The notes beneath the pieces were generated by a model. The model searched no databases and was not told where the DNA came from. It saw only the letters and a list, made by a program, of their open reading frames with translations. From positions 62,001-126,000 of the forward strand of contig CACJSY010000002.1 in NCBI GenBank assembly GCA_902596205.1: 64,000 nt of DNA, read 5' to 3'. This DNA is from an uncultured Pelagibacteraceae bacterium. GTDB lineage: Bacteria; Pseudomonadota; Alphaproteobacteria; Pelagibacterales; Pelagibacteraceae. A program made the position numbers and the translations under genes. Shown here in pieces: positions 29,354-31,766 of this stretch (positions are counted from its first letter, which is position 1; each line of letters begins with the position of its first letter).

Positions 29354-29743
29354 TTAGGAATAATCGACAGGTAAGTTTGATTTTTTCCAGCCAGGGTCCT
29401 GGCTATTACCGCTATACCCGTCAGAAACATTTAGAACGGAATAACCTTCATTTTCTAAAAGATTTGCGGCTATCATAGATCTTCCTCCAGCAGCACACAT
29501 CACCAAAATTTTTTTATCTTTACCAATTTTTTTTTTCACGTTTACTATAAAATTTTGATCTGGAACTTGCCAATTTGTTAAGTCATGACTTACTGTAACA
29601 AAATAAGTTTTGGAATTTAAATCTTCTGCTTTAGGTTTTCCCAAAGATTTCCATTCGTTATCAGTTCTAACATCTAGTAAAACTGTATTGGAATTTTCTT
29701 GAATAAAATCTTTTATTTCTGATGATTTGATTTGTTTAATCAT
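29354..29743 (-). CDS. Rhodanese-like sulfurtransferase
   Basis: The protein has 129 residues and a single rhodanese domain. VLLDVRTDNEWKSLG opens the domain, and the active-site loop CAAGGRS carries the catalytic Cys in VMCAAGGRSMIAANLL. Single-domain rhodaneses transfer sulfane sulfur between thiols. It is 40 bases downstream of metY on the same strand with a hairpin between them, and may share the SAM-controlled transcript. It is cytoplasmic, with no signal peptide. Confidence 0.88.
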   Translation of the reverse strand: MIKQIKSSEIKDFIQENSNTVLLDVRTDNEWKSLGKPKAEDLNSKTYFVTVSHDLTNWQVPDQNFIVNVKKKIGKDKKILVMCAAGGRSMIAANLLENEGYSVLNVSDGYSGNSQDPGWKKSNLPVDYS

Positions 29744-29783: not shown

Positions 29784-31076
29784 TTAAGCAGCTAAAGCTT
29801 GTTTGATGTCCGCAATAATATCATCTGGGTGTTCGATACCTATAGACAGTCTTACGTAGCCTGGTGTAACACCTGCAGCTGCTAATGCTGCATCGTCTAA
29901 CTGACTATGCGTTGTAGTTGCAGGGTGTATCGCTAAACTTCTTGCGTCACCTATATTAGCAACGTGGTAAAGCATCTTTAAGTTATCAATAAACTTTGCA
30001 CCAGCATCCTTAGTACCTAAGTCCATTCCAACTAATGAGCCGTATCCACCTTGCATATATTTCTTAGCTCTCTCTTTAATCTCACCTTGGTGATTAGTAG
30101 GGTAGATTACATTCTTAACTTTCTTCTGTGTTTCTAAGAAAGTAACAACTTTTTCTGCATTGCTACAATGTTGTTTCATTCTTAGAGCTACTGTTTCCAA
30201 ACCTTGAATAATTTGGAAAGCATTAAATGGACTTAAAGGAGCGCCCAAGTCTCTCAATAAAACCACTCTCGCTCTTATCACAAAAGGAATGTTGGCTCCT
30301 GTTAACTGAGGAACTGCATCTGCCCAAACGGCACCACCATAACTTTGATCTGGTTCGTTTATTAATGGTTGTCTTTTTCTGTCTTTGATCCAGTCAAAGT
30401 TTCCACCATCAACAATTATTCCACCAATTGAAGTTCCGTGACCACCAATATATTTAGTCAAAGAGTGCATTACGATTGCAGCACCATGCGCTAAAGGTTT
30501 ACAAATTACGGGTGATGCAGTGTTATCGATAATTAAAGGTATGCCTTTTTTTCTACCAATATCTGCAACTTCTTTGATTGGGAACACTCGAAGGTAAGGA
30601 TTTGGACAAGACTCACCATAGTAAGCTCTTGTTTTATCATCAGTTACTTTCTCAAAGTTTTTAGGATCCGCAGGATCTGCAAATCTAACTTCAATACCTT
30701 GTTGTCTTAAAGTATTTTTAAACAAGTTAACTGTACCTCCGTATAAGTCAGTTGAAGCAACAATATTGTCTCCAGCTTGTGCTAAGTTTTGAACACACAT
30801 TGCTGATGCTGCTTGACCTGAACCTACCGCTAATGCAGCTACACCACCTTCAAGTGCTGCAACTCTTTTCTCTAACACATCAACTGTTGGATTCATTATA
30901 CGTGTATAAATATTACCAAATTCTTTTAGACCGAATAAATTTGCAGCATGTTCTGCATTTTTAAATTGGTAAGAAGTTGTTTGGTAAATTGGAACTGCTA
31001 CGGCTGTAGTCGTAGGATCTGCCCTGTAATCGCTACCATGTAAGCCAATAGTTTCCGGATGTTTAAAATCAGCCAT
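29784..31076 (-). CDS. metY: O-acetylhomoserine sulfhydrylase (PLP-dependent)
   Basis: The protein has 430 residues. It makes homocysteine from O-acetylhomoserine and sulfide, or methionine from methanethiol. The PLP lysine is K208 in MHSLTKYIGGHGTSIGG, and NIYTRIMNPTVDVLEKRVAALEGG is the family phrase. The length and the GGHGTSIGG motif indicate the MetY/OAH type, not MetB/MetC. A GGGGGAAAATCA leader gives a usable SD seven bases before the ATG. The 290-base leader holds a SAM-II/SAM-V riboswitch pair, so expression falls when SAM is high. Confidence 0.95.
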   Translation of the reverse strand: MADFKHPETIGLHGSDYRADPTTTAVAVPIYQTTSYQFKNAEHAANLFGLKEFGNIYTRIMNPTVDVLEKRVAALEGGVAALAVGSGQAASAMCVQNLAQAGDNIVASTDLYGGTVNLFKNTLRQQGIEVRFADPADPKNFEKVTDDKTRAYYGESCPNPYLRVFPIKEVADIGRKKGIPLIIDNTASPVICKPLAHGAAIVMHSLTKYIGGHGTSIGGIIVDGGNFDWIKDRKRQPLINEPDQSYGGAVWADAVPQLTGANIPFVIRARVVLLRDLGAPLSPFNAFQIIQGLETVALRMKQHCSNAEKVVTFLETQKKVKNVIYPTNHQGEIKERAKKYMQGGYGSLVGMDLGTKDAGAKFIDNLKMLYHVANIGDARSLAIHPATTTHSQLDDAALAAAGVTPGYVRLSIGIEHPDDIIADIKQALAA

Positions 31077-31116
31077 TGATTTTCCCCCTTACTGTTTCTC
31101 TAATTGTCTCGTTCAT
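31069..31116 (-). CDS. Second short reading frame in the metY leader
   Basis: On the minus strand an ATG overlaps the stop of the preceding short frame in an ATGA arrangement, and the frame reads MNETIRETVRGKING. Its TGA lies inside the first codons of metY, so the two overlap by eight bases. The metY SD lies within it. The layout suggests that ribosomes pass from the first short frame through this one to metY. Translation of the peptide is an inference from layout alone. Confidence 0.4.
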   Translation of the reverse strand: MNETIRETVRGKING

Positions 31117-31163
31117 TTTTTTCTCCATTTTAGAGAAGAATGAACGGAGTAAATTCTGCTCAT
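31113..31163 (-). CDS. First short reading frame in the metY leader, under the SAM-V control region
   Basis: An AAGGAG (31172-31167) lies three bases before an ATG that opens the 16-residue frame MSRIYSVHSSLKWRKK. This SD directly follows the SAM-V aptamer core, so SAM binding would hide it. The frame ends in ATGA together with the next short frame. The spacing between SD and ATG is short but workable. The peptide may be a leader peptide that couples SAM sensing to metY translation. Confidence 0.45.
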   Translation of the reverse strand: MSRIYSVHSSLKWRKK

Positions 31164-31164
31164 C

Positions 31165-31222
31165 TTCTCCTTTTTAGTACTTTGGCAAATGCCAGGTGTA
31201 CAATACGGTTCAAATACCCGGT
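31165..31222 (-). promoter_or_regulatory. SAM-V type riboswitch (second aptamer of the metY leader)
   Basis: On the minus strand CCGGGT (31221-31216) pairs with ACCTGG (31197-31192), with the loop reading TATTTGAACCGTATTG. A GTAC in the loop (31201-31198) pairs with GTAC downstream (31180-31177) as a pseudoknot, followed by TAAAAAGGAG. The loop sequence closely follows the SAM-II core seen in marine metX leaders. The position over a ribosome binding site fits the SAM-V class known from SAR11, where SAM binding blocks translation. Assignment between SAM-II and SAM-V is by position and by the adjoining SD. Confidence 0.8.
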
Positions 31223-31240
31223 TTAATTTTAGATTTTTCC

Positions 31241-31269
31241 AAAAAAAAACCACCGACTAAAGCGGTGGT
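31241..31269 (-). terminator. Intrinsic terminator, expression platform of the SAM-II riboswitch
   Basis: On the minus strand ACCACCG (31269-31263) pairs with CGGTGGT (31255-31249) with a 7-base loop, followed by at least eight T residues. The stretch CGCTTTAG across the 5' arm and loop (31264-31257) is the exact complement of CTAAAGCG in the aptamer core (31290-31283). The two pairings exclude each other, so SAM binding would free the terminator to form. Confidence 0.85.
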
Positions 31270-31279
31270 CAGATTGACA

Positions 31280-31335
31280 TTGCGCTTTAGCAGGATTTAT
31301 TAAGCGCCCGCAAGTTGCTTTAACTCAGCGCTAAA
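31280..31335 (-). promoter_or_regulatory. SAM-II riboswitch (first aptamer of the metY leader)
   Basis: On the minus strand the P1 stem is AGCGC (31332-31328) with GCGCT (31307-31303). The loop has TGAGTTAAAGCAACTTGC. GCGG (31311-31308) pairs with CTGC near 31290-31293 as the pseudoknot, and the invariant GCTAAA follows. The arrangement superimposes on the known SAM-II aptamer. It is placed right after a promoter and right before an intrinsic terminator, so it controls transcription elongation into metY. Confidence 0.88.
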
Positions 31336-31337
31336 TA

Positions 31338-31367
31338 ATACTATCAAAATTCTCAATTAATTGTCAA
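31338..31367 (-). promoter_or_regulatory. Promoter of the metY riboswitch transcript
   Basis: On the minus strand a perfect TTGACA (31367-31362) is followed after 18 bases by TAGTAT (31343-31338). The predicted start falls near 31331, the first base pair of the SAM-II P1 stem, so the aptamer would sit at the very 5' end of the mRNA. The promoter lies in the gap after the VOC gene. Confidence 0.6.
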
Positions 31368-31370
31368 TGA

Positions 31371-31766
31371 CTAATTTTTTAATGTTTTAAGCTCTAAAAC
31401 ATTGCCATGAGGATCTTTGATGAAGAAAGTCTCCTGCTCCTCTTTTTGGTCTTTAAATCGAGTGTAAGGCTTATCTAAATAATCAATATTATTTTTCTTT
31501 AAATTTTCTTTTATTTTTTCAAAGATTTTTGGATCTAAATGAACTCCAAAATGAGGGACTGGTACTGACCCCATATCTACGTCATGTCTTTCTGAAGGTA
31601 ATTTCATATTAGTTTTGTGTAAAGTTAGCTCATTACCCCAAAAATCAACATCAACCCATTTACCTTCTTCTCTATTACCTAACTTACATTCTAAGATTTT
31701 TTCATAGAAATGCACCGAGTCTGTCAGATCTCCAGCTGGTACTGCTAAATGAAATGGTCTACTCAT
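31371..31766 (-). CDS. VOC (glyoxalase/bleomycin-resistance fold) family protein
   Basis: The protein has 131 residues. It starts [26 protein letters not shown], the usual first beta-alpha unit of the fold, and ends with [14 protein letters not shown], where a metal-ligand Glu is normally found. His, His and Glu residues that could hold a metal are present. Members include dioxygenases, isomerases and lyases, so the reaction is not known. It lies between the divergent cysE gene and the metY leader on the metY strand. Confidence 0.82.

Follow-up and report, generated by a model that had tools for sequence, protein, structure and literature searches.

How can a SAM-V riboswitch control metY when the SD at the end of its aptamer does not belong to metY? 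The question arises on the minus strand of the window, by which we mean the whole stretch of 64,000 nucleotides that was analysed. The SAM-V aptamer lies at 31164-31228 (RF01826, 75 bits against a gathering score of 41, model positions 1-66 of 66) and metY at 29784-31076. The identity of metY, which codes for O-acetylhomoserine aminocarboxypropyltransferase, is firm according to its family matches (TIGR01326, 566 bits with a cut-off of 495.1; PF01053). Two chained mini-frames are found between the aptamer and the gene, exactly as a sequence-only reading of this DNA had claimed. Mini-frame 1 (ORF1, 31113-31163) has its ATG at 31163 and codes for the 16 residues MSRIYSVHSSLKWRKK; its TGA overlaps the ATG (31116) of mini-frame 2 (ORF2, 31069-31116), which codes for the 15 residues MNETIRETVRGKING. 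Counted from the A of the metY ATG (31076), the stop codon of ORF2 starts 5 nt further downstream and thus lies inside metY. Each start has an SD of its own, which is GGAG for ORF1 (SD1, 31170-31167) and ORF2 (SD2, 31126-31123) and GGGGG for metY (SD3, 31088-31084). In the predicted fold, the metY start region (31065-31088) consists of SD3 and a hairpin, AAAATCA/TGATTTT, whose loop contains the metY AUG.

The same reading had stated that the SD adjoining SAM-V serves the 16-residue frame rather than metY. This is borne out, the order being SD1 with ORF1, then SD2 with ORF2, and then SD3 with metY, and the signal has to travel to metY in steps. SAM-V has been described as acting directly on the RBS (PMC6061858, PMC9481103, PMC10907184; these and the other PMC sources are cited here for extracts of their texts), and a review files it under direct occlusion (PMC10907184). 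That description concerns RF01826 as well: the aptamer ends in an SD on the 3′ side, and an OFF state with SAM is assumed (6FZ0; PMC6061858, PMC10907184). There, the occluded SD is taken as that of the gene, whereas in the window the SD of the regulated gene is not the one at the aptamer, and SD1 would be a switching strand with a second SD beyond it. Compared to shuffled sequences, the bulk fold of the 131-nt stretch is only mildly more stable (z −1.95; 9 of 200 shuffles were equally stable).

This leader arrangement is not peculiar to the genome of the window. RF01826 matches were obtained in 131 of the 169 genomes of the genus and in 253 of the 397 genomes of the family; in the order, 37 of 117 genomes have a match, all but two of them within Pelagibacteraceae, the family of the window. 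All 133 SAM-V places of the genus (131 genomes) were retrieved and classified, with a leader counted as relay type when more than 26 nt separate the gene start and the end motif of the aptamer (a definition which takes in L173). Relay-type leaders account for 89 places (69 metY, 18 bhmT, 2 metE-like), and the gene is directly behind the aptamer at the other 44 (42 metY, 2 mmuM-type). For other genera of the family, 84 more places were collected in a way that favoured the best-scoring ones, and these comprise 7 relay leaders (6 bhmT including L173, 1 metE-like), 70 direct ones, and 7 that were unresolved or not located. For representatives, gene labels are based on family matches (L016 and L150 match S-methyl_trans, PF02574, and L162 weakly matches PF01717); the other labels come from N-termini, and the name bhmT is taken from papers on HTCC1062.

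For energy computations, a set of 97 distinct leaders was used (52 metY, 42 bhmT, 3 metE-like). This set is devoid of L315 and L332, which are no SAM-V leaders, of L156 (a direct gene with a short frame), of the single place L154/L331 (no gene start found), and of L173 and L294 (no SD2 motif found by the script), and L229 and L235 (no 90-codon frame there; their leaders are the same as L023 and L020). The place L154/L331 (G332 C7) carries SAM-V with segments 1 and 2 (see below), with no segment 3 and no gene start found behind, and is possibly a remnant of gene loss. L173 and L174, from two other genera, have very long leaders with about 130-140 nt from SD1 to the gene start; L174 has a long 1:2 hairpin in its fold and a weak second SD, and in L173 a second SD was not found.

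The comparison of these relatives shows that ORF1 is not conserved while the aptamers are. The ORF1 stretch reads as RSFFSRK, VHSSPE, or SFILLQ, which are three frames of one RNA, and in some relatives ORF1 ends after 2-4 codons. It has 2 codons in L011 and 55 codons in L049; the two are neighbours on the metY tree, with a branch length of zero between them. Because the same RNA is read in different frames, we consider the RNA to be conserved and not the peptide. What is conserved is an RNA in three parts: SD1, which may or may not be followed by a start; an anti-SD strand; and SD2 together with the next start. In the window, these are segment 1 (31158-31170, with the SD1 end inside the SAM-V match and AUG1 at 31163-31161), segment 2 (31132-31145, the anti-SD strand GTTCATTCTTCTCT), and segment 3 (31110-31127, with AUG2 at 31116-31114). 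Segment 2 is predicted to pair with segment 3 or, when SD2 is held open, with segment 1. Across the 97 leaders SD2 reads GGAG in 95, and this second SD, be it that of the gene or of ORF2, is 44-127 nt beyond SD1.

When the genomes of 84,980 species were scanned for the pattern SD1-antiSD-SD2, 111 stretches were obtained. The script recognized 103 of them as SAM-V relay leaders and two more (L229, L235) were assigned by reading, while six have no SAM-V at the match. Among the 80 of the 111 for which titles were listed, 76 are from Pelagibacteraceae or Pelagibacter, and the other four are stretches without SAM-V. The three-part pattern had no match in the viral collection.

SAM binding was mimicked by forbidding pairing, in folding computations that leave aside the SAM-V pseudoknot, Mg2+, and kinetics; on these terms, opening SD2 in the 97 leaders costs a mean of 0.95 kcal/mol for metY, 1.51 for bhmT, and 1.70 for metE-like leaders as long as SD1 is free; when SD1 is blocked, the respective means are 9.14, 9.00, and 9.07 kcal/mol. 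The rise has a mean of 7.86 and a minimum of 2.22 kcal/mol, and SD2 is predicted to close in 97 of 97 leaders. In 3880 linker shuffles the mean difference was 1.00, and the value of the own leader was reached by only 7 of them; for 75 distinct leaders from the Rfam search the mean difference is 7.74. Partial blocking is of relevance because, in the published structure with SAM, a short helix is believed to take up no more than a portion of the SD (PMC6061858). With 1, 2, or 4 nt of SD1 blocked, the median is 4.1, 7.1, or 9.4 kcal/mol, and the 2-nt block yields more than 3 kcal/mol in 95 of the 97 leaders. Stability is, on average, the same for both alternative helices (−9.09 vs. −9.08 kcal/mol, standard deviation of the difference 1.78), which is indicative of a balanced switch. 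When the 12 nt of segment 1 were swapped between seven leader clusters (a loose clustering, with 54, 24, 14, 2, 1, 1, and 1 leaders), the SD2 opening cost increased from 1.28 (7 own combinations) to 5.30 kcal/mol (42 foreign ones), and the switch fell from 6.12 to 2.79. Segment variation is small within the metY clade. At the level of computation, there are thus two mutually exclusive helices which share one strand, and one of them hides the SD in use. Since blocking SD1 raises the cost of SD2 by 7.9 kcal/mol, compared to 1.0 in shuffles, SAM-V most likely acts by strand exchange and not via the first peptide.

The switch of the window itself (SD2 opening at 2.06 kcal/mol with SD1 free and at 6.87 kcal/mol with SD1 blocked, a difference of 4.82) is the weakest among the 52 metY leaders. 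With 2 nt of SD1 blocked, the SD2 opening cost is 4.09. In the lowest-energy fold with nothing blocked, the hairpin between segments 2 and 3 is already formed (−27.6 vs. −26.6 with SD2 held open); co-transcriptional folding would be expected to favour the 1:2 helix first.

The sequence-only reading had seen a different route, in which the riboswitch could act on metY via two coupling steps, as each junction permits re-initiation. On this route, SAM-V would gate ORF1, and ribosomes translating it would melt the SD2 hairpin and pass to ORF2, from which metY would be reached. AUG1 is well spaced from SD1, and free SD1 opens about as easily as SD2 (1.18 kcal/mol in the 97 leaders), so that a ribosome could start ORF1. 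A 30S subunit on SD1 would close SD2 (mean 9.84 kcal/mol), and elongation through segment 2 could therefore help. In 49 of the 97 leaders, no more than 6 nt separate the ORF1 stop from the next start, a share over the naive third, with relatedness included in this count. However, the predicted closure of SD2 upon SD1 blocking extends to all 97 leaders, among them 16 with an ORF1 that continues out of frame, 6 with an in-frame fusion, and 7 with an ORF1 stop ahead of SD2. A further 19 have no ATG 4-13 nt after SD1, and among bhmT leaders this applies to 17 of 42. Together with the reading of one RNA in three frames and a lack of codon selection, this makes the two-step route unlikely in our view.

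The second mini-frame, in contrast to the first, is retained. Its stop codon begins 5 nt past the A of the metY ATG in each of the 52 distinct metY leaders, so that each ORF2-metY pair has the stop overlapping or close to the next start, as is characteristic of a coupled pair. The ORF2-to-metY distance is 40 nt in 50 leaders and 37 nt in two, which is a whole-codon difference, and the SD1-to-SD2 distances of the same 52 leaders depart from 48 by 1, 2, 4, and 15 nt. Opening of the metY start region costs a mean of 6.90 kcal/mol in the 52 relay leaders (6.95 with SD1 blocked), compared to 1.76 in 60 direct leaders. For the start region of ORF2, the cost is 2.83 kcal/mol as long as SD1 is free and 10.70 once it is blocked. 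As the metY start is independent of SD1 and the ORF2 start depends on it, ORF2 could be the sole SAM-responsive entry. Coupling from ORF2 to metY is plausible because the ORF2 stop position is kept and the metY start region is structured whatever the state of SD1. What speaks against this view is that SD3 taken alone opens at about 2 kcal/mol and does not respond to SD1 (1.88 kcal/mol when SD1 is free vs. 2.02 when it is blocked), so that any repression of metY would depend wholly on the putative coupling from ORF2. Of the two coupling steps that had been suggested from the sequence, the one from ORF2 to metY fits these data, and re-initiation from ORF1 is unsupported. The outcome which that reading had named as a refutation, frames lost with the aptamers retained, was observed for ORF1 but not for ORF2.

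That the two frames might be true small peptides with a function of their own had also been considered. A frame and stop position kept in all 52 metY leaders would be expected for a functional ORF2. Yet substitutions show no clear synonymous excess in ORF1 (8 synonymous, 15 non-synonymous, and 2 stops; expected 5.9, 18.0, and 1.2) or in ORF2 (7 synonymous and 17 non-synonymous; expected 5.8 and 17.5), and codon-level conservation was found in neither, in a sample of 43 of the 62 distinct metY leaders (those of a single length) which show little divergence and provide low power. Thus, neither ORF1 nor ORF2 looks like a selected peptide. Moreover, both frames are absent where metY is directly behind the aptamer (42 of the 133 places of the genus), and ORF2 is absent in bhmT leaders. 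We consider functional peptides to be highly improbable.

We therefore return to strand exchange and favour, with a probability of about 0.73, a combined model in which a strand-exchange SAM-V platform is followed by ORF2 as a coupling frame to metY; the first step is rated higher than the model as a whole and the coupling step lower. Computation has established the complementarities and how they recur, along with frame statistics and folding energies; we infer the direction of the effect, the blocking of segment 1 by SAM in cells, and the coupling from ORF2 to metY. Without SAM, segment 1, with its SD at the SAM-V end, would pair with segment 2 and leave SD2-AUG2 free. With SAM, SAM-V would grip the base of segment 1, and segment 2 would pair with segment 3, hiding SD2 and AUG2. 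In bhmT and metE-like leaders, SD2 would be the SD of the gene itself. In metY leaders it would drive the 15-codon ORF2, and the ribosomes on ORF2 would melt the hairpin at the metY start and terminate shortly inside metY, which would be translated by coupling. The likeness of segment 1 to SD2-AUG2 would follow from their shared partner, segment 2, and would have created an accidental start codon and with it the 16-residue ORF1, which is probably a by-product. Short frames behind riboswitches should thus be viewed with caution, as they can be shadows of an RNA strand which resembles a ribosome site.

Parts of this model have counterparts in known systems. In strand-exchange or antisequestor platforms, for example those of TPP riboswitches (PMC10907184, PMC2258182), mutually exclusive helices likewise hide or free an SD, but in the SAM-V leaders the switching strand would itself be an SD, with or without a start codon. 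A riboswitch-controlled short frame with termination-reinitiation into the gene is known from the B12 riboswitch and translated uORF before ppe2 of M. tuberculosis (PMC11260477); the aptamer differs, and an SD1/SD2 exchange is not described in the extracts of that paper. Neither a relay nor strand exchange is described for SAM-V in the extracts of the literature surveyed, a scope which is without Poiata et al. 2009, a cited SAM-V paper that might mention the bhmT structure.

A tree was obtained for 123 metY fragments, of which 68 are of the relay type and 55 of the direct type. A single change is sufficient for the relay on this tree (support 97/91), and midpoint rooting places relay metY among direct genes. 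When linkers were clustered, the metE-like leaders L123 and L124 and the bhmT leader L116 grouped with metY leaders, while the other bhmT leaders, L008, and L162/L163 formed further clusters. This clustering across genes suggests that the element has moved between genes. Judged from these sequences, it seems to have arisen more than once or to have diverged beyond recognition.

Genome G192 was taken as that of HTCC1062, as three of its four SAM-V places are inside SAM-V intergenic regions tabled in PMC2704228. Its bhmT has a relay leader, in which the SD2 opening cost increases from 0.10 to 6.00 kcal/mol; the direct arrangement is found at its other three SAM-V places, which are named metY, mmuM, and osmC in the papers. 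The bhmT, metY, and mmuM genes of HTCC1062 are reported to rise under sulfur limitation (PMC5069961), which is compatible with either mechanism. About 20% of marine metagenomic reads have been reported to match HTCC1062, a model strain, most closely (PMC2704228), and the SAM-V-associated metY, bhmT, and metE-like genes decide how such cells make methionine. If much of the genus and bhmT of HTCC1062 use strand exchange, the real output step has been missed by studies restricted to the aptamer.

A corresponding exchange is predicted for SAM-II leaders. In another alphaproteobacterial order, the SD1/anti-SD/SD2 exchange recurs before metY-type genes (labelled by family match for L349 and by N-terminus for the others) at L349, L381, and L383-L393, which are 13 of the 14 SAM-II places that exceed the cut-off; the remaining one, L382, was not located by the script. 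The mean SD2 opening cost of these 13 leaders increases from 0.71 to 5.92 kcal/mol, and most of their predicted folds have a terminator-like hairpin inside the 1:2 loop. Four weaker SAM-II matches of that order (L394-L397) precede another gene. SAM-II leaders generally, when scored in a similar way with the first 20 nt blocked, seldom show such a response: 6 of 53 exceed 2.5, and one of them (L349) is itself of the relay type. The others above this value are L335, L350, L399, L400, and L402. In L335, L399, L400, and L402, there is a metA-like frame with an internal downstream start that responds to blocking of the aptamer tail (3-5 kcal/mol).

The SAM-II riboswitch of S. meliloti metA is known to require its SD, although translation starts 74 nt downstream and AUG1 is unused in the native leader; the downstream RBS is inactive in isolation, and the authors propose a standby site (PMC9373788). 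By analogy, SD1 of the SAM-V leaders could be a distant standby site that captures the 30S subunit for a start at AUG2. The S. meliloti data speak for such a role of a riboswitch SD, but a standby site does not predict the complementarity of SD1, anti-SD, and SD2 or their balance, and SD2, with its nearly invariant GGAG, is strong by itself. We regard this explanation as improbable for the SAM-V leaders. Conversely, strand exchange, which is not among the explanations offered in the extracts of that paper, may directly explain the SD requirement, the unused AUG1, and the start at 74 nt in S. meliloti. It may also explain the inactive isolated RBS if this is likewise hidden in the isolated construct. 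In this way, the need for an SD located 74 nt away from the actual start codon would have an explanation that can be tested. More broadly, the SD at the aptamer side in the SAM-II/SAM-V superfamily might often be a switching strand which frees a distant second SD, a feature shared by SAM-V of Pelagibacteraceae (metY, bhmT including that of HTCC1062, metE-like) and SAM-II of the other alphaproteobacterial order, with S. meliloti metA as a further case and, in metY, a short frame without peptide-level selection as a relay by coupling. We give this generalization an even chance.

Upstream of SAM-V, the window carries a divergent SAM-II-like aptamer (31267-31341, minus strand; RF00521, 18.3 bits, under the gathering score of 36) and a terminator-like hairpin, ACCACCG/CGGTGGT followed by a T run (31241-31269, minus strand, read from the sequence). 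Tandem SAM-II/SAM-V riboswitches have been reported (PMC9481103, PMC2704228, PMC11508383), and in the extracts of those papers SAM-V acts on the RBS itself or no further platform is given. A SAM-II match was absent at E 0.5 in 18 of 20 related loci scanned. The SAM-II-like element (31341-31241) has an antiterminator/terminator arrangement, with CTAAAGCG (31290-31283) being complementary to CGCTTTAG (31264-31257) in the terminator, as seen in the sequence. The neighbours of metY on the minus strand code for a rhodanese-domain protein and a glyoxalase-superfamily protein (29354-29743 and 31371-31766). At positions 797-1096 of the window, also on the minus strand, there is an alphaproteobacterial tmRNA (220.2 bits), to which the permuted tmRNA model matches as well.
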